A DNA stretch of 26,351 nt, taken from positions 1 through 26,351 of IMG/VR virus record IMGVR_UViG_3300028025_001147; one strand, 5' to 3'. Numbering within the stretch: position 1 is the stretch's first letter; each line of letters starts with the position of its first letter. Of the stretch, positions 5,166 through 13,711 are shown piece by piece. The DNA comes from a virus. The notes beneath the pieces were generated by a model. The model searched no databases. It was not told the origin of the DNA and saw only the letters and a program-made list of their open reading frames with translations. The translations under genes were made by a program, and so were the position numbers.

Positions 5166-5326
5166 TGCCTAATTATGACTTCAAATGCGAAACGTGTGGC
5201 ACAGTGGTGGAGTTACAAGACTCGACAGCAACGGGTTGCACAACCTGTGGTAACACAATGGTTAGAATCTGGACAGCACCAGCCGTTAAGTTTAACGGCA
5301 GTGGTTTCTATTCAACAGGAGGATAA
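5165..5326 (+). CDS. FmdB-type zinc-ribbon protein, 53 aa
   Basis: The ORF starts at an ATG overlapping the previous stop (GTGATG) and reads MPNYDFKCETCGTVVEL, then GCTTCGNTMVRIWTAPAVKF, ending NGSGFYSTGG. Cys8, Cys11, Cys25 and Cys28 form the CxxC...CxxC ribbon, and the VKFNGSGFYSTGG tail is the hallmark of the FmdB regulator-like family common in Actinobacteria and their phages. It is probably a small regulatory or nucleic-acid-binding protein; the biochemical role is not established. The stop at 5324-5326 is followed immediately by the WhiB gene, whose strong AGGAGG site (5317-5322) lies in this gene's last codons. Confidence 0.85.
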   Translation: MPNYDFKCETCGTVVELQDSTATGCTTCGNTMVRIWTAPAVKFNGSGFYSTGG

Positions 5327-5328
5327 TG

Positions 5329-5601
5329 ATGTTCAAGCCAAGTCAAACACCTAGTTGCGAAGGCACAGATACAGAAGCGTTCTTTGCTATTGAAGGAACT
5401 AAAGCATATCCCGATAAAGAATTAATTACACGCATATGTAACTCATGCCCTGTTGCGAATGAATGTCTTGACTATGCATTGCATCATTCAGTAGTAGGCT
5501 GGTGGGCTAACACTGGAGAAAAACAACGTAGTAGAATGCGCACCCAGCGCAACATAATCCCTGAACCAATAACAATCAGATACTTAGGAGAAGCATGTTA
5601 A
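5329..5601 (+). CDS. WhiB-family iron-sulfur transcription factor
   Basis: Two adjacent ATGs exist at 5326 and 5329; AGGAGG at 5317-5322 is 6 bases from the second, so I start there. The 90-residue protein has Cys10, Cys37, Cys40 and Cys46, the CX26CX2CX5C set that holds a [4Fe-4S] cluster in WhiB proteins, followed by a VVGWWANTGEKQR turn that stands where the family has its G-V/I-W-G-G loop, and a basic segment (RSRMRTQR) for DNA contact. WhiB proteins bind the host primary sigma factor and alter promoter choice; phage versions can down-regulate host genes or block host WhiB. It is the best single host marker in the window. The stop overlaps the next gene. Confidence 0.9.
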   Translation: MFKPSQTPSCEGTDTEAFFAIEGTKAYPDKELITRICNSCPVANECLDYALHHSVVGWWANTGEKQRSRMRTQRNIIPEPITIRYLGEAC

Positions 5602-5872: not shown

Positions 5873-6064
5873 TTACTTCTTAAGACCAAACTCAGGTGCT
5901 GACTTATCAAGCGCCTTCAAAATAGGACCTACAAAACCAGTAAGAAACGCTGTCGCCAGCACCTTTGGGTCATGTTGTCCTGCTGTGTAAAGAGCAACCA
6001 CTGAGGCTACTGCTGCACGTGCATATGATAAAGCGATTGCTTTAAGTTTAACTGTGTCTACCAT
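5873..6064 (-). CDS. Small holin-like hydrophobic protein, 63 aa
   Basis: The last gene of the minus-strand operon. AAGGAGAT lies 5 bases before its ATG, a near-perfect ribosome site. Residues about 9-28 (ALSYARAAVASVVALYTAGQ) and 36-51 (LATAFLTGFVGPILKAL) are two weakly hydrophobic helices joined by HDPKV, with a charged tail. Size, helix content and position right after the endolysin fit a holin or holin modulator, but the helices are less hydrophobic than standard spans, so it may be a different lysis-cassette component. I recognise the type as common in actinophage lysis regions without a known biochemical role. Confidence 0.65.
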   Translation of the reverse strand: MVDTVKLKAIALSYARAAVASVVALYTAGQHDPKVLATAFLTGFVGPILKALDKSAPEFGLKK

Positions 6065-6073
6065 CTTATCTCC

Positions 6074-6817
6074 TTAAAGAAGTTTAATTAATTCAGCCCA
6101 AGTTTTTGGACCAATGATGCCATTAGAATCAACTATGTCATGGTTATCTTGGAATGCAACAACAGCCTTCTTTGTTGCAGGACCGTAATCCCCATCTTCT
6201 ACTAACGTAAGCGCACGCTGAACAATCTTGACAGCCTCGCTTTTATCTCCTGGTTTAATACGACCAGGAAATGCTGGTGCTTCCGATGCAGGAACAGTTG
6301 CTTTTACTTTATTACCCTTGTAATTAGGGCGACCAAACCCTTCAATGAATACAGGAATACCTTTAGGATTCTTCTTGTATGCACGAATTTTCTTTACACA
6401 CTCACCGCCATTGGCTTGTGAGCCTGACTTCTTCTTATCACCTGCAGTGTTACCTTCAACGGTAGTTACTGTTCCATCTCCGTTGTCTTTGATAACAATA
6501 CCAACGTGCTCAATAGGAGCACCGCCTGTCATAAAGTCAAAGTAAACTATATCTCCTGGCTGTGGCTTTGCTGATGAAGCATCAGTCCAAGTTTTCATCT
6601 TCTTAAAAGATGCTGCCCCTGCCATAGTAGAAACAGTATTAGGAATCTTAACGCCTGCCTTATCGGCTACCCACATGCAAAATGAACCACACCAAGGTAA
6701 GAAGTTAGCCTTAGTAAATTTGCCATACTTGGTTTCGTTATCTTTAGGACCTTCTACATATCCGACTTCTGCTAGTGCAATTTCAACCATTGCCTCTGCT
6801 GTGCCTTGTTCTGCCAC
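6074..6817 (-). CDS. Endolysin: CHAP amidase/peptidase plus PG-binding domain
   Basis: The 247-residue protein has an N-terminal CHAP-type cysteine peptidase: catalytic Cys43 in FLPWCGSFCMWVAD, His104 in PIEHVGIVIK and the polar residues of VEGNT (121-124), with the PGDIVYFDF strand between. After a linker (about 165-185) a peptidoglycan_binding_1 domain covers 186-247 (IKPGDKSEAVKIVQRAL, DGDYGPATKKAVVAFQ, GIIGPKTWAELI). It cleaves host peptidoglycan at the end of infection. It starts at GTG 6817, with AAGGAG about 8 bases upstream. There is no signal peptide, so it needs a holin to reach the wall, and several candidate membrane proteins surround it. Confidence 0.92.
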   Translation of the reverse strand: MAEQGTAEAMVEIALAEVGYVEGPKDNETKYGKFTKANFLPWCGSFCMWVADKAGVKIPNTVSTMAGAASFKKMKTWTDASSAKPQPGDIVYFDFMTGGAPIEHVGIVIKDNGDGTVTTVEGNTAGDKKKSGSQANGGECVKKIRAYKKNPKGIPVFIEGFGRPNYKGNKVKATVPASEAPAFPGRIKPGDKSEAVKIVQRALTLVEDGDYGPATKKAVVAFQDNHDIVDSNGIIGPKTWAELIKLL

Positions 6818-6827
6818 AAGTTACTCC

Positions 6828-7145
6828 TTAGTTATAATCTGGGTCGTCTTGTTTTGCTTTTGCTTTATCTGCTGCTTGACGTTCTTCAACGGCTACATCA
6901 GCAACAGTCTTTGCACCTTTGTCTACGCTAGAAAATGCAGCATTAATCTCATCAAGAGTAAGTTTGCCATCATCCATAAAAGCGCGAGCAAGTCTTTCAA
7001 CAACTACTGCAACTGCTGTTAGTCCAGCAACCATCATTGCCTTAGCAACAGAGATACCTGCTACTGCACCAGCACCAATGACACCAAGACCTGATGCTGC
7101 AAACACAGCAACAATACGCATCAATACATTCTTTAATGATTTCAT
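6828..7145 (-). CDS. Holin-like membrane protein with EF-hand-like segment, 105 aa
   Basis: Two hydrophobic segments (about 9-30 and 33-50, rich in Ala, Gly and Val) form a hairpin, followed by a charged cytoplasmic tail. At 58-71 the sequence DDGKLTLDEINAAF resembles the second half of an EF-hand loop and its exit helix, a feature seen in some actinophage holins. The C-terminus is Lys/Ala/Asp-rich. ATG 7145 overlaps the stop of the 57-residue membrane gene (ATGA), and the endolysin start follows 10 bases after its own stop. This is the best placed holin candidate, but a second exists directly upstream. Calcium binding is only suggested by the motif; the loop lacks several ligands. Confidence 0.72.
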   Translation of the reverse strand: MKSLKNVLMRIVAVFAASGLGVIGAGAVAGISVAKAMMVAGLTAVAVVVERLARAFMDDGKLTLDEINAAFSSVDKGAKTVADVAVEERQAADKAKAKQDDPDYN

Positions 7146-7315
7146 TCTTCATCCTTTGGGTTACGTAATTTAAAAGTAATAATCCAGATAACACTGGATA
7201 CAGCAATGGCATAGCCAACAACAGACTTAGCCGAACCTTCAAGGACTACCCATGCAATGAACATGCCAAGGAGAGTCCAGAGTTGATTGGCTATATCTGA
7301 GAAAAAGTTTTTCAT
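7142..7315 (-). CDS. Two-span membrane protein, holin candidate, 57 aa
   Basis: Direct translation shows a 57-residue ORF from ATG 7315 to TGA 7142. It overlaps the stalk-protein stop upstream and the next holin-like start downstream by ATGA junctions, and AGGAGA lies about 6 bases before its ATG. Residues 12-26 (LWTLLGMFIAWVVLE) and 33-48 (VVGYAIAVSSVIWIIT) are hydrophobic, with a charged KLRNPKDEE end. A short two-helix protein in the lysis cassette is typical of class II holins; it could equally be an antiholin partner of the 105-residue protein. Confidence 0.75.
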   Translation of the reverse strand: MKNFFSDIANQLWTLLGMFIAWVVLEGSAKSVVGYAIAVSSVIWIITFKLRNPKDEE

Positions 7316-8409
7316 GGTTTTCTCCTATATGTAGCACCCGCAGCAGCCGTTACTGCAGCAGAGGTGGCAATGTTTCCTACGATAATGGCTGAGATAACTA
7401 CTTCTTCAGCCCTTTCTCGCACTTCTGGGGGAAGGTCTGCACCCACTGAACCAAGTGCAGCCAAGGCTGCAGCAGGGTCAGTGAATATAGTTGCTAGAAG
7501 TTCTGCTGGATTGCCCAACAACTCAATAGCAATAGCAACCTGTGCCGTTACTACTACGCCATTAGATAATTTTACTGGCGTGTCTGGCGGTAGTGTTGCT
7601 AAATCTATGTCATCTGCTTGTATAATTTCTTCATCTACAGCAGGAGGCTCAGATGGAAATTCAGGAACCAGTTCGGGAACTACAGGAGCAGGAACTTCCT
7701 CTTCAGGTTCAAACTCAGGAGCAGGCTCAGGTTGTTCTTCTTCTACTGGAACGACTTCAGGTTCAGGTTCTGGAACTGGAGTCTCTTCTACGGGAACAGG
7801 CTCAGGTGTTATCTCAGGTTCAGAAACAGGTTCTGGACTTGGCTCTGGATTCTGGATTACGACAGGCGGTTCTGGAACAGGGACAGGTTGTATTGGTAAA
7901 GGCTCAGGAACAGGCTCAGGAGCGGGTTCTGGGGCAGGAACAGGGGTAGGTGATGGTTCAGGCAACGGAACAGTATTGGTCGGCTCAGGTGAAGGCACTG
8001 GAACTACAGGTTCAGGAGTTACAGTTGCAGTTGAGGTCTCTGATGGAGACGGAGAAGGCTCGGGTTGAGGCTGAACAGGCTCAGGCGTTGGCTCTTCGGA
8101 AGGCGATGGAGTGGGACTTGGGGTAGTTGCTATCCCGTTGTAATACCATGTGCTCTCAGGTGCTGTTGTAGATACATAAGTATCCCATCCACCTGATGCT
8201 ATCTGGCAAAACAGCGCAGCAATGTTGCCTTTGCCCTCAAAAAAACTATTTGTATTATCCCAACCAACACTAAAATCTTTGGTTGTTCCACCTGCGTTAG
8301 CGCAAGTAACAGTTATTTGCCCTGTTAACTCAGCATTAGCAGTAGGTAAAGAAAATAAAGAAGTGCCTAATACAATTAAAGTTACTGCAAGTAAACGGGG
8401 AAGTTTCAA
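7312..8409 (-). CDS. Secreted Pro/Glu-stalk protein with C-terminal anchor
   Basis: The 365-residue protein starts at TTG 8409 (AAAGG a few bases upstream) with a signal peptide: MKLPRLLAVTLIVLG, hydrophobic core, and a SLPTANA cleavage site near residue 26. Residues 27-95 form a small domain with Cys36 and Cys68, a possible disulfide. Residues 96-258 are a low-complexity stalk of Pro-Glu-Pro, Pro-Ser-Pro and Pro-Val-Pro repeats. The C-terminal region holds helical segments (VAIAIELLGNPAELLATIF) and a weak hydrophobic helix (EEVVISAIIVGNIATSAAVT) ending YRRKP, like a membrane anchor with cytoplasmic basic end. It should extend through the cell envelope. In the lysis cassette it could disrupt outer layers, act as a spanin analogue or block superinfection; none of this is proven. 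Confidence 0.7.
   Translation of the reverse strand: MKLPRLLAVTLIVLGTSLFSLPTANAELTGQITVTCANAGGTTKDFSVGWDNTNSFFEGKGNIAALFCQIASGGWDTYVSTTAPESTWYYNGIATTPSPTPSPSEEPTPEPVQPQPEPSPSPSETSTATVTPEPVVPVPSPEPTNTVPLPEPSPTPVPAPEPAPEPVPEPLPIQPVPVPEPPVVIQNPEPSPEPVSEPEITPEPVPVEETPVPEPEPEVVPVEEEQPEPAPEFEPEEEVPAPVVPELVPEFPSEPPAVDEEIIQADDIDLATLPPDTPVKLSNGVVVTAQVAIAIELLGNPAELLATIFTDPAAALAALGSVGADLPPEVRERAEEVVISAIIVGNIATSAAVTAAAGATYRRKP
7636..8124 (-). repeat. Pro/Glu low-complexity repeat encoding a stalk
   Basis: The DNA coding for residues 96-258 of the stalk protein is a degenerate short repeat built from codons for Pro, Glu, Val, Ser and Thr (CCTGAGCC-type units on the minus strand). Such tracts change length easily by slippage, so the stalk length may vary between related phages. 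Confidence 0.75.
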
Positions 8410-8420
8410 CGGTGACCTTT

Positions 8421-8510
8421 CTAGTCGTCGTCTTCGTCATCTACCCATTCTTCTGGGTCTATGCCTACTGTTGGTAGTCCCCACAATGGCTCAGGTATTA
8501 TAAATCCCAT
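8421..8510 (-). CDS. Acidic mini-protein, 29 aa
   Basis: ATG 8510 overlaps the preceding stop (TAATG), and the frame reads MGFIIPEPLWGLPT then GIDPEEWVDDEDDD before TAG at 8421. The hydrophobic/Pro-rich N-terminus and the run of acidic residues at the end look like a deliberate peptide rather than noise, and the one-base overlap supports coupled translation. I know no function; it sits between a membrane-anchored coiled-coil protein and the stalk protein. Confidence 0.55.
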   Translation of the reverse strand: MGFIIPEPLWGLPTVGIDPEEWVDDEDDD

Positions 8511-8707
8511 TACTTACGCTCACATAACATTTCATATATACGGTCCACCCTGTCCTCTAATCTATTGACGGAGTCACGGAGACTAGTTCCAGAATTTGGT
8601 TTAAGTTCACTAAGATAATGTTGAACTAACCAGCGCACAAATGCTGTAAATCCAACTATAAGTGTCATGATTGCAACAGCAAATCCTGACCATTCTGCTG
8701 CACTCAT
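8510..8707 (-). CDS. Single-span membrane protein with coiled-coil, 65 aa
   Basis: Residues about 8-27 (GFAVAIMTLIVGFTAFVRWL) form a membrane span, followed by a short linker (LSELKPNSGTS) and a heptad-like helix (LRDSVNRLEDRVDRIYEML). Its ATG overlaps the 744-residue tail gene stop (TAATG). Small N-anchored coiled-coil proteins are common just after tail genes in actinophages and are often listed as holin-like or tail-associated. It may oligomerise in the membrane as part of lysis control. No enzymatic motif is present. Confidence 0.72.
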   Translation of the reverse strand: MSAAEWSGFAVAIMTLIVGFTAFVRWLVQHYLSELKPNSGTSLRDSVNRLEDRVDRIYEMLCERK

Positions 8708-10941
8708 TATACCGTCCTAATAGTTAGAGTAATAATTCCACCATAACCAGTTAAGCGTTTATCTGGTGGTGTAACTTGTGTAAACTTTACTTCTTCAATC
8801 AAACACTGGGCAATTTCGCTATTGCGAAAGTCTTGCCAAGTAATAATATCTCCGTTTGCTTCAGCGTTTTCAAGCGCTGCAAGGCGGTCTATTGCGCGTC
8901 CTTCATAGCCAACAGTTTGGTTATACTTGTCAGTCTCACTATCAAAGTTCATAAGAGGAACTGTAATTAAACGGTTACGTGGAGTAGCAGGCACAGCCTT
9001 TAACTGATAACCTTTAAATGTAGGACCTTTAGCAGGGTCAGTTGCATCTCTAAACAAAGTAAAACGTAGACCCATAGAATCTTGTGCACCAGCAGGTGAG
9101 GTAATAGTTACTTCGGGTGAACCAATTACAGAATCATACGATATTAAATCATACAATGTTCCTTCTTGACTACGTGTTTGTAGACTCATAGAGCCATAAG
9201 TAAATGACCCACGTCCAATTATACGCTTAAAGTTTTTAGGTTCTAGGGTGTTGTATCGGATAAGACCTGTTTCAATGTAACCGCTAGGGCGCAACTCGGT
9301 TGCGCTTTCAAGATAAACAGCGCCTACCTTTTTAACCTTAGCGGTAGATGATGTTACGGCTGTAGATGTTACGTTAGATGTAACACGGGCGTAAGTAAAT
9401 GTTGTAGTTGTTGGAACAGATAATACAGTTTCACCTGTGTATGGTGAACCGCTATCAAATGGAGCACCAACACCTTCCACCCATACTTTATCACCAACAG
9501 TTAAGCCGTGGGCTGAAGACATGGTAAGTGTGGCAACATCAGATGTTAATGCTTTATTAGTTACTAATGTGTCTGCAGTTGTGCCTGCAATAACAAATGC
9601 CACTCGGTCAGTGTTACCAATAAAAGCACAAGCAGTTGTTACTGTGCCTTCATAATTATCGTAATGAATATCATGTGCATATGGGAATCTAAGAGTTTCA
9701 ATCTCATTGCTAAGGTCAATACGAATAAGACCAGGCTCTCCATTAACACCAGTTGCACACCATACATAGGTATCCCGTGCACAAAAATCATAACAAGGTT
9801 GGCTAGTGTGGACAATCAAAGGACCATATGTCAATGAACCAGCACCATCAATTGATGCTACTCGTATACCTTTGCTAGTTCCAATCATCATATAACCAAG
9901 GTATTCATATATTTTATAAACAACTTCACCTTCTGGCATTTCTGCTGCAACTACGGCTGAAGTTAATGCTGGCATAGCACCAGTGTTGTCTACATTTATG
10001 CGAAAAATAGATGAACGAGAACCTAAAAATCCAGATACATATACAGCAGTGCCAGATTCTGTAATGCTTGTAAATATATAACTGCTATTAGGATGTGTAT
10101 AAATGTCAGTAAGAGATGCTGATGTAGATGCACTAGTTGGCACTGTAGATATAACATTGTTTACTGCTATAACTATACGGTGTTTAACATATTCCATTAC
10201 CGCTCTTGTTACTGTTGTTCCTGTTCTAGTAAACATAACAGTAGGTGAAACACCAGATGTAGCAGTTAATGCTTTTTTATCCATTTCAAGTTTGCCTGAA
10301 GCAGTGTCATTAGTTATCCAGTATGCAAATTGACCATCATCACACATAGCATATACAGGGTCATTAGTTCCAACTGTATAATCAACCCAATTGCTTAGGG
10401 TTCCATCGGCATCAATACGGTCAAGGTCATAGCCATCTAATAAAAGAAAAGCATCAGTATTATTGTAATGAATAGTGCGCATAATTTGACCAGGCATACG
10501 TGTAGATGCATTAACTTCTTGTGTTGTAATATGCACATTATCTACATCATTAAGTAATGTTACTTGACCAGGTGTCCATATGTTTACACCGTATGATTCT
10601 TTAGAACGGTATGAGTTAGATGCAATAGTTGTAGAATATGGGTTGGCTAGTGGGTCATAGTAGACAATACCCTCACCAGTGTGAAATGACATTTGACTAC
10701 GTAGCCACCAGTTGGAAAGCGACTGCTCTCCTGGGTCACGTTGTGAATCAAACTGTTGTTTACGGAACTGTGCAGTAGCACGAACATATGGGTTAGCATC
10801 ATCAATTGCAGCAAGGAATGGCAAACCACCGATAGCAAAATCATACTGAACACCAGTATTTTGCCAAAGTGTGGCAGTTGTTAAACCAATATCGACGGCA
10901 ATAGCACGGGTGCTTCTACCTTCGGTTATGTCTCTTGCCAC
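8707..10941 (-). CDS. Large tail protein, beta-propeller-like (nozzle/spike candidate)
   Basis: A 744-residue protein from GTG 10941 with AAGGAGAT 5 bases upstream. The N-terminus (MARDITEGRSTRAIAVDIG) is followed by a long stretch of repeated short beta motifs such as DPVYAMCDDGQFAYWIT, GYMMIGTSKGIRVAS and TYVWCATGVNGEPGLIRID, which read like propeller blades. Residues about 460-538 (ATLTMSSAHGLTVGDKVWVEG onward) form a separate small beta domain, and the C-terminus is again beta-rich, ending GYGGIITLTIRTV. The absence of a tape-measure gene and the position after the fibre genes suggest a distal tail or nozzle component of a short tail. Host-cell receptor contact is possible. Exact role is not identifiable by eye. 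Confidence 0.72.
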   Translation of the reverse strand: MARDITEGRSTRAIAVDIGLTTATLWQNTGVQYDFAIGGLPFLAAIDDANPYVRATAQFRKQQFDSQRDPGEQSLSNWWLRSQMSFHTGEGIVYYDPLANPYSTTIASNSYRSKESYGVNIWTPGQVTLLNDVDNVHITTQEVNASTRMPGQIMRTIHYNNTDAFLLLDGYDLDRIDADGTLSNWVDYTVGTNDPVYAMCDDGQFAYWITNDTASGKLEMDKKALTATSGVSPTVMFTRTGTTVTRAVMEYVKHRIVIAVNNVISTVPTSASTSASLTDIYTHPNSSYIFTSITESGTAVYVSGFLGSRSSIFRINVDNTGAMPALTSAVVAAEMPEGEVVYKIYEYLGYMMIGTSKGIRVASIDGAGSLTYGPLIVHTSQPCYDFCARDTYVWCATGVNGEPGLIRIDLSNEIETLRFPYAHDIHYDNYEGTVTTACAFIGNTDRVAFVIAGTTADTLVTNKALTSDVATLTMSSAHGLTVGDKVWVEGVGAPFDSGSPYTGETVLSVPTTTTFTYARVTSNVTSTAVTSSTAKVKKVGAVYLESATELRPSGYIETGLIRYNTLEPKNFKRIIGRGSFTYGSMSLQTRSQEGTLYDLISYDSVIGSPEVTITSPAGAQDSMGLRFTLFRDATDPAKGPTFKGYQLKAVPATPRNRLITVPLMNFDSETDKYNQTVGYEGRAIDRLAALENAEANGDIITWQDFRNSEIAQCLIEEVKFTQVTPPDKRLTGYGGIITLTIRTV

Positions 10942-11043: not shown

Positions 11044-11895
11044 TTAGCCAACAACTACAATTACTACGCCTGTGCCACCAGCGCCAGATGGAGTTCCGCC
11101 TCCACCACCGCCTCCAGTATTTGCTGTTCCTGTTGTTCCAGCAGTGCTGCCAGAAGCCGCACCTGCACCACCACCGCCAGAGCCACCTGCTCCACCACCA
11201 GGACCACTACCTGAACCACCGCCTCCACCTGCATATGTAACAGATGCTCCAGTAATACTTATTGCCGTTCCTGCACCGCCTGCGCCACCAGTTCCGCCAG
11301 ATGCATTTGAGCCAGCAGCGGAAGCACCACCGCCTCCACCACCGCCAATTGTTCCAGTTCCGCTAAAAGTTCCAACGCCACCTGAATTGCCAAAACCAGA
11401 CATTCCAGCACCTGCTGTTCTAGAAGGTCCAGAACTTGAAGTTCCACCGCTACCGCCACCAGAACCACCGTTAAATCCAGTGCAAATAGGAGTTGGTCCA
11501 GAATTTGCACCACCACCCCCGCCACCAGGAGCAATGAAATTTCCAACCCTACTTGCAACTCCATTATTAGAGTTAAATATAACGTTATCAACACCAGCAA
11601 TACCACCTGCGCCAACTGTTACTGTTAGTGTTCCTGCAGGTAAAATTGCTGATGTATCATAAAGAAGTGCACCAGCACCACCTCCACCTGCAGACCCGCC
11701 ACCGCCAGAACCACCGCCACCAACTACTAAAATTTCAGCAGTTCCTGCTTGACCAATAGTAATAGAACCAGAACCAGTAAAACGATAAATAGTTTTACCA
11801 GCACGGGTAGATGAATCAATGTTAGGTGAACCAGTAGTAGCAGTTACAGTAGCCTTACCAATTCCACCTGCAGATACAGGGCTAAATAATGGCAT
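11044..11895 (-). CDS. Glycine-rich adhesin-like tail fibre tip protein 1
   Basis: The 283-residue protein has a short N-terminal domain (to about 60) with TIYRFTGSGSITIGQAGTAEILVVGGGGSGG, then over 200 residues dominated by Gly runs broken by Ala, Ser and Thr, ending GGTGVVIVVVG. The pattern (a strand pair, poly-Gly loops, a final hydrophobic strand) is that of glycine-rich phage fibre-tip proteins, where Gly segments can pack as polyglycine II helices and short loops bind the receptor. AAGGAG lies about 6 bases before its ATG. It sits next to fibre genes and has a paralogue-like partner at 12695-13711. Role in adsorption is inferred from family resemblance. Confidence 0.75.
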   Translation of the reverse strand: MPLFSPVSAGGIGKATVTATTGSPNIDSSTRAGKTIYRFTGSGSITIGQAGTAEILVVGGGGSGGGGSAGGGGAGALLYDTSAILPAGTLTVTVGAGGIAGVDNVIFNSNNGVASRVGNFIAPGGGGGGANSGPTPICTGFNGGSGGGSGGTSSSGPSRTAGAGMSGFGNSGGVGTFSGTGTIGGGGGGGASAAGSNASGGTGGAGGAGTAISITGASVTYAGGGGGSGSGPGGGAGGSGGGGAGAASGSTAGTTGTANTGGGGGGGTPSGAGGTGVVIVVVG

Positions 11896-12694: not shown

Positions 12695-13711
12695 TTAGTA
12701 GTAAAGAAGTATGCAACCTACGCCACCATTGCCACCAGTTACTGTAGTTCCTGTGCCAACTCCACCTGCACCACCACCACCGCCTCCTGAACCGCCGTTA
12801 CCACCTGCGCCAGGTTGACCAGTATTATTAGTTGCTGTTGATGTGCCACCAGTGCCACCAGTGCCACCCAAACCAATTGCTCCACCAGTTCCAGGTGTTC
12901 CTTGACCTGTTCCAGCAGCATTAGCGCTTCCATTTCCTCCTGCTGCTAATAAACCGCCACCGCCACCACCTGCTGAACCAGAGTTTACGTTGTTGCCTTT
13001 ACCACCACAACCACCGCCACCGCCAACCATTCCAAAACCGCCAGCGCCTCCGTTAGTTCCTGCTACACCGCCAGCCTTAGATGAGCCACCAGCACCGCCA
13101 CCGCCAGATGTTCCATTACCGCCAGCACCGCCAGCAGTAGCATTACCATACCCACCGCCACCTGCTCCAACTCCAGAACCACCTTGGGTGCCTTCCGTAG
13201 TTGCTCCAGTGCCACCAGGTCCTCCATAAAAACTTGTGCCACCGTTGCCGCCATTGCCGCCATCGCCGCAACCACCACCGCCACCTGCGCCTAAAGTTCC
13301 TGCTAAACCACCGCTGTTTGCTCTACCCCCACCTCCACCGCCTGCTACCAATCCAGCAAATATAGTATTTCCTCCTTGGGTTAATGGACTTTCAGTAGCA
13401 TTTCTACCAACTCCACCTGCGCCAATTATGCAAGACATTGTTGTGGTAGGAATATAAACCCAACCTTGAAGCACAGCACCCGCACCTCCACCGCCAGATA
13501 CTTGACCAGTATTATTAGCAGATGCGCCTCCGCCTCCACCAACTAAAATAGCCCAAACCCAGTTAACATTAGACGGAAAGGTTATAGATGTTCCTGATGT
13601 AATAGTTTGCTTAAGTGTAAGACCATAAGGTGAATTAGAATTTGATTGAATAGGGTCACCTTGTTGTGTTAAAGGTGTGCTACTTGGTGCTGGAATTTGT
13701 GCTATACCCAT
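12695..13711 (-). CDS. Glycine-rich adhesin-like tail fibre tip protein 2
   Basis: The 338-residue protein starts MGIAQIPAPSSTPLTQQG, has an N-terminal beta module (LTLKQTITSGTSITFPSNV, then WVWAILVGGGGG) and a long Gly-rich body with GGNGG, GGAGG and GGTGG units, ending GGNGGVGCILLYY. It is the same architecture as the 283-residue protein, with different spacers, suggesting a duplication followed by divergence or two tips of different specificity. Position between the 101-residue protein and a zinc-ribbon gene places it in the fibre cluster. It probably forms an adsorption tip with polyglycine II-like packing. The overlap TAATG with the following (upstream) gene end keeps expression coupled. 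Confidence 0.75.
   Translation of the reverse strand: MGIAQIPAPSSTPLTQQGDPIQSNSNSPYGLTLKQTITSGTSITFPSNVNWVWAILVGGGGGASANNTGQVSGGGGAGAVLQGWVYIPTTTMSCIIGAGGVGRNATESPLTQGGNTIFAGLVAGGGGGGRANSGGLAGTLGAGGGGGCGDGGNGGNGGTSFYGGPGGTGATTEGTQGGSGVGAGGGGYGNATAGGAGGNGTSGGGGAGGSSKAGGVAGTNGGAGGFGMVGGGGGCGGKGNNVNSGSAGGGGGGLLAAGGNGSANAAGTGQGTPGTGGAIGLGGTGGTGGTSTATNNTGQPGAGGNGGSGGGGGGAGGVGTGTTVTGGNGGVGCILLYY

Follow-up and report, generated by a model that had tools for sequence, protein, structure and literature searches.

The window, i.e. the complete 26,351-base virus record that was analysed, carries on its minus strand a gene for a stalked protein (7312-8409) that lies between tail genes and holin/endolysin genes, as the first-pass annotation of this DNA had placed it, although the strand had to be corrected to minus. 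Upstream lie a gene for a 744-aa protein (8707-10941; PHROG 11667, function unknown), which is probably a tail protein, and a gene for a 65-aa protein with one N-terminal hydrophobic stretch (8510-8707). Downstream follow, likewise on the minus strand, a 57-aa protein with two hydrophobic stretches (7142-7315; overlapping the stalk gene by 4 nt, ATGA), a hydrophobic, holin-like 105-aa protein (6828-7145; overlapping the 57-aa gene by 4 nt), an endolysin with matches to a CHAP domain and a peptidoglycan-binding domain (6074-6817) and, at the end of the cassette, a 63-aa protein (5873-6064). The 105-aa protein matched a holin PHROG weakly (E=0.055) and PHROG 26427, labelled nuclease, with E=4.5e-25; the latter label may be wrong, because both the sequence of the protein and its place look holin-like. 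Further into the tail region, two glycine-rich proteins are encoded on the minus strand, of which one (11044-11895) passes the Pfam cut-off for Gly_rich_2 (PF21722) and the other (12695-13711) matches a tail PHROG. A WhiB-like gene on the plus strand (5326-5601), a marker of actinobacterial phages, and the close relatives of the phage among cultured Planktophila phages (see below) point to a freshwater actinobacterium as its host.

The stalk gene, delimited by its ORF and by comparison with homologues, encodes 365 residues from a TTG start that is preceded at 6 nt by a likely ribosome-binding site (AAAGG, 8416-8420). Residues 1-26 (8332-8409) form a predicted signal peptide, with K/R, a core of mean hydropathy 2.2 over 15 residues and A-N-A before the predicted cleavage between TANA and ELTG. 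Next comes a head domain (residues 27-95; 8125-8331), delimited by alignment, in which two cysteines, C36 and C68, are invariant across 20 aligned sequences and which AlphaFold2 models as strands plus one helix (mean pLDDT 84.7). The stalk (residues 96-255, some 160 residues; 7645-8124) stands out by its composition of 37% Pro and 21% Glu and carries a net charge of -34. Comparison of homologues delimits a conserved anchor domain (residues 266-365; 7315-7614), modelled with a mean pLDDT of 77.5 (lower at the end) as short strands, three short helices and then one 34-residue helix; within it lies a predicted membrane helix (residues 337-355; 7345-7401; mean hydropathy 1.94), closely followed by the basic tail RRKP (residues 362-365; 7315-7326), which homologues also support. 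The signal peptide, two-cysteine head, Pro/Glu stalk and hydrophobic C-terminus with basic end that had been read from the single sequence were thus borne out, also by homologues of the same build, except that the C-terminus is more than a hydrophobic end, the last 100 residues being a conserved domain of their own.

An initial scan of viral contigs recovered 19 homologues that share this plan. In later profile scans the head was found at 106 loci, the anchor domain at no fewer than 465 and the 57-aa protein at no fewer than 598. All evidence on the family is sequence-based, and the contigs counted may be fragments. The presence of same-build homologues in viral contigs, together with the dN/dS values obtained from 26 independent pairs (head 0.23, stalk 0.41, anchor 0.12, 57-aa gene 0.09), indicates that the ORF is more than a chance occurrence. 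Signal peptides and membrane helices were called from hydropathy, charge and cleavage-motif counts, and by these counts the signals are kept in most of the 127 non-redundant homologues: a strong N-terminal hydrophobic core is present in 106, K or R ahead of the core in 125 and A-x-A past it in 112. At the other end, the C-terminal 19-residue stretch reaches a hydropathy of 1.6 or more in 115; 112 carry a net positive charge after the helix and 115 a net negative charge before it. Given the signal peptide, the stalk, the single C-terminal helix and the charges that flank it, a topology with the N-terminus outside and the C-terminus inside is well supported, and with it the earlier suggestion of an envelope-spanning surface protein. 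The length of the stalk varies from 147 to 397 aa (median 249) among homologues with a window-type head, and in some homologues it is rich in Ala, Glu, Arg and Lys in place of Pro and Glu.

The stalk protein had no match in Pfam (PA14, PF07691, included) or NCBIfam and none that was convincing in PHROGs. Tblastn searches of the INPHARED phages (50,697 records in the case of the stalk protein) gave no match for the stalk protein, the 57-aa protein or the anchor domain. When 84,980 bacterial and archaeal genomes were scanned with the anchor and head profiles, no relative was returned, but each scan relied on one or two short peptide patterns, so that a distant host origin may still apply. At the level of structure, the head model gave nothing significant in Foldseek and, in a structural second look, only scattered unrelated entries (best Z 3.8); the anchor model gave no significant PDB match, and the sole BFVD match of note was an uncharacterised phage protein (A0A6J5NAZ9, TM 0.80). 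Weak profile matches of the head to antibody heavy chains (E=0.005) were set aside in view of the modelled strands plus helix and the Foldseek result.

Of the 19 homologues found first, 18 keep the order 744-aa gene, 65-aa gene, stalk gene, 57-aa gene, 105-aa gene and CHAP endolysin (the remaining homologue, L002, is on a contig that ends earlier). Among 204 contig groups, 153 non-redundant contigs contain the 57-aa gene, and in all of them the ORF immediately upstream is an anchor ORF; the two genes overlap by 1 nt in 83 of these contigs, overlap by 4 nt in 60 and are spaced by 0-2 nt in 10. Of the loci behind this count, 80 were found by the 57-aa protein alone. On other backbones the pair adjoins M23 peptidases or a terminase-like 599-aa gene; where enough flank is available it is mostly found beside holin or endolysin genes, even as the upstream genes and the type of endolysin (CHAP or M23) vary, and on a few of these other backbones there was no holin or endolysin match within the available flank. 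The link to the lysis region is therefore stronger than the single locus could reveal. In terms of pairwise similarity the anchor correlates with the 57-aa protein (r=0.44) and the 105-aa protein with the CHAP endolysin (r=0.85), and as a consequence the cassette looks like two pairs. Judged from gene content, the module of anchor and 57-aa protein is tied together, usually linked to lysis genes, and optional.

That it is optional follows from a comparison of loci in which the 65-aa gene is followed by at least 2.5 kb of sequence. Among these, 101 carry the module, all with a CHAP endolysin, whereas 33 lack the anchor, 57-aa and 105-aa genes and have a VanY-like endolysin in 23 cases and a CHAP endolysin in three; in many of the 33 the endolysin follows the 65-aa gene immediately. 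The split in endolysin type is not absolute, since one short contig (L277) combines the anchor and the 57-aa gene with a VanY-like match. In several module-less loci (L291, L294, L298, L299, L305 and others) the order is the 65-aa gene, then mostly a VanY-like endolysin, then a relative of the 744-aa gene. The 65-aa protein, kept in module-less relatives, is likely the common holin-like gene of these cassettes. The comparison extends to cultured phages: the Planktophila phages LanE43-AprE7 and AprF5 (OX376640, OX376641), which lyse their host, resemble the window phage in their major capsid protein (~69%) and 744-aa protein (55% identical) and have the same flanking 65-aa and 63-aa genes, but no stalk, 57-aa or 105-aa gene was found between these flanking genes, and AprE7 has a putative VanY-like endolysin of 167 aa where the window has the CHAP endolysin. 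The 33 relatives without the module at this locus and the host lysis by the cultured module-less phages together imply that, as far as gene content tells, the stalk module is accessory and has no core lysis function.

What varies within the module is mainly the head. The anchor profile also matches proteins that bear other heads, at least six types in all, including the lectin-type PA14 fold; among the 95 contigs with an upstream flank the window-type head is found in 70, a second, beta-rich type in 13 and a third in 5, the rest falling into smaller groups. In six anchor proteins the head passes the Pfam cut-off for PA14 (one of these adds a sub-threshold fibronectin match), and the phage PA14 copies contain an ADDG motif; in PA14 adhesins glycans are bound through a paired-aspartate calcium site (PMC6218569). 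Synonymous divergence (pS) reaches 0.57 in the heads, as against 0.34 in the anchor and 0.33 in the 57-aa gene, as would be expected from an exchange of heads by recombination. The head types that were tested occur in anchor proteins and in the frameshift partners described below, plus one split gene (L304), and none was seen in the tail genes of the sampled loci.

In one branch, programmed -1 frameshifting apparently determines whether the protein is anchored. Seven contigs (L144, L151, L174 and L184-L187) have a classical -1 slippery heptamer, CCCAAAA or TTTAAAA, immediately before the TAA that closes the head ORF, and the anchor is encoded further on in the -1 frame (predicted sites at 3705-3732 in L144 and 3729-3738 in L151). 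A long stem-loop is predicted to follow 5 nt later in the five sequences that were folded, but only one of them is clearly better than its shuffles (z=-2.8), the others ranging from z -0.8 to -1.6. If the frameshift is real, the phages of this branch make both a soluble and an anchored form of the protein.

Several known systems share part of this plan. The closest in proposed action is LysZ of the Corynebacterium phages CL31 and Cog, which, as reported in PMC13056207, is a protein of 177 aa with one helix and an N-in/C-out topology that is proposed to promote lysis via lipid-anchored glycans. Both are actinobacterial phage proteins with one membrane helix and a proposed action on envelope glycans. 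By that description the stalk protein is nevertheless set apart from a LysZ-type protein: its signal peptide and flanking charges give N-out/C-in instead, and it is larger, with a stalk and exchanged heads. LysF1b of mycobacteriophages (PMC13056207) has a single helix in N-out/C-in orientation and a place in the lysis cassette of actinophages, frequently together with a two-helix partner, but it has an N-terminal helix, a charged cytoplasmic part and no exported head, and in layout the 65-aa neighbour is closer to it than the stalk protein is. Ltp of Streptococcus phage TP-J34 (PMC3952083) is likewise exported and tethered outside the membrane, with a low-complexity spacer and a separate active domain; it differs in having a lipid anchor, a repeat domain and a place in the lysogeny module, as opposed to the C-terminal helix, other heads and lysis region found here. 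An Ltp-type lipoprotein was rejected for lack of a lipobox cysteine (the predicted cleavage after ANA is followed by ELTG, and the first cysteine is residue 36). The yeast adhesins of the PA14/Flo5 type (PMC6218569) also combine a lectin-type head, a long low-complexity stalk and a C-terminal anchor, and PA14 heads do occur in the wider family; these adhesins are, however, eukaryotic and GPI-anchored, and the window head differs from theirs in lacking a PA14 match. Spanins, which belong to phages of Gram-negative hosts, are envelope-spanning lysis accessories as well, but the stalk protein has no lipobox, on which ground a spanin was rejected, and its topology is opposite to that of the inner-membrane spanin. 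A sortase-anchored wall protein was dismissed since an LPXTG motif is missing just ahead of the helix (LPPDTP, which resembles it most, is located ~60 residues away from the helix on its N-terminal side), and a phage holin was ruled out by the size of 365 aa and by the presence of a signal peptide, a head and a stalk.

We tentatively propose, with a confidence somewhat below even, that the stalk protein is a wall-spanning and probably glycan-binding accessory of lysis that resembles LysZ in action while standing outside the LysZ family. Its signal peptide would direct its export and the C-terminal helix would retain it in the cytoplasmic membrane, with the head outside and RRKP inside, and the long, negatively charged stalk would take the head across the cell wall. 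The translationally coupled 57-aa membrane protein would probably be the working partner of the anchor. The head would bind a ligand, most likely a glycan, at the envelope surface, and the two proteins would engage outer envelope polymers so that, upon the action of holin and endolysin, the cell opens and its progeny are released efficiently. The sequences themselves support the export signal, the stalk, the anchor domain, the constant pairing with the 57-aa gene, the place in the lysis region and the exchanged heads; from these we infer surface exposure, contact with the 57-aa protein and a role in lysis. Glycan binding by the window head would follow by analogy with other members of the family, given that Pfam gave no match to this head and the PDB none that was convincing. 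What favours a lysis accessory is the kept gene order, the pairing with the 57-aa gene, the correlation between the two proteins, the lysis neighbours, the topology, the PA14 heads, the head exchange and the precedent of LysZ. On the other side, the module-less relatives and the lysing AprE7 and AprF5 mean that the module is not needed for lysis as such, the largely soluble product predicted for the frameshift branch would fit a lysis role poorly, and position alone is no proof of function.

The main rival is a superinfection or receptor block, in which the displayed head covers the receptor, traps incoming phages or spares progeny from debris, comparable to T5 Llp or to Ltp. Such a block would suit the accessory distribution of the module, the exchanged, recognition-type heads and the branch that may yield both soluble and anchored forms, and Ltp is built along similar lines, from an anchor, a low-complexity spacer and an active domain, its form without the lipid anchor acting on more phages (PMC3952083). 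The linkage of the gene to lysis genes and the 57-aa gene, however, speaks against this role, and late expression would be late for exclusion. The idea that heads match the tail genes was assessed by Mantel correlations of pairwise similarity: over all heads, head similarity tracks neither the 744-aa gene (r=0.04, n=86) nor the tail fibre (r=0.06, n=32), and within window-type heads the correlation with the 744-aa gene is weak (r=0.11), values that bear on function only as far as one of these genes encodes the receptor-binding protein. This weak or absent covariation gives no support to a receptor-matched block, nor does the absence of the tested head folds from the tail genes of the sampled loci, and we consider a superinfection block unlikely, if still worth weighing. 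A matching of heads to the endolysin was tried in the same way and rejected: r=0.34 over all heads vanished within window-type heads (r=0.08, p=0.12). Of the two roles named in the first-pass annotation, i.e. envelope disruption or superinfection block, either may apply: the link to the lysis region stands, a core lysis function does not, and a receptor-matched block has no support.

Further down the scale, the constant coupling to a two-helix protein under strong constraint could mean that the stalk protein regulates the timing of lysis, its head sensing a surface signal that the anchor relays to the 57-aa protein as a holin or antiholin, as in T4 RI and T; this is improbable, as nothing points directly to signalling, relatives do without the module and the 105-aa protein is a holin candidate too. 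Slightly more improbable still is a surface adhesin with an ecological role, e.g. in the sticking of infected cells or in altered grazing by protists, which draws on the adhesin-like plan with PA14 heads and on that plan alone, and leaves the link to lysis genes unexplained. A virion component, i.e. a tail-attached spike for host recognition, is very improbable: the gene adjoins tail genes and its product weakly matches a tail fibre profile (PHROG 15824, E=0.005), but the conserved signal peptide and C-terminal membrane helix are normally missing from virion proteins, and the pair is also found beside other types of genes such as the terminase-like 599-aa gene.

The locus may represent an undescribed modular surface-display system, in which one anchor with its own partner carries swapped, stalked heads as an accessory beside the lysis genes of many actinophages and appears to be -1 frameshifted in one branch; this is a possible reading, held a shade more loosely than that of a lysis accessory. 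The hosts of freshwater actinobacterial phages include some of the most abundant bacteria of lakes, and most genes of these phages lack a known role. If the reading is true, many of these phages display a swappable recognition protein on a cell that is about to burst, which would provide a handle on the opening of the Gram-positive envelope or on the competition of phages for one cell. The genes for the stalk protein and the 57-aa protein form a clear pair for deletion or expression.

Two minor observations concern the make-up of the module. In L304 (2319-4852, minus strand) a head ORF adjoins a stalk-plus-anchor ORF in a different frame and no slippery heptamer was seen, so this arrangement may be a split gene, a frameshift or an assembly error. 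In addition, EF-hand-like DGxxTxxE stretches are present in the 105-aa protein of the window and recur as repeats near the anchor in some homologues (L150, 2505-3998; L173, 1469-2935; L304, 2319-3617, minus strand), and it is possible that these stretches constitute a shared calcium-binding module.
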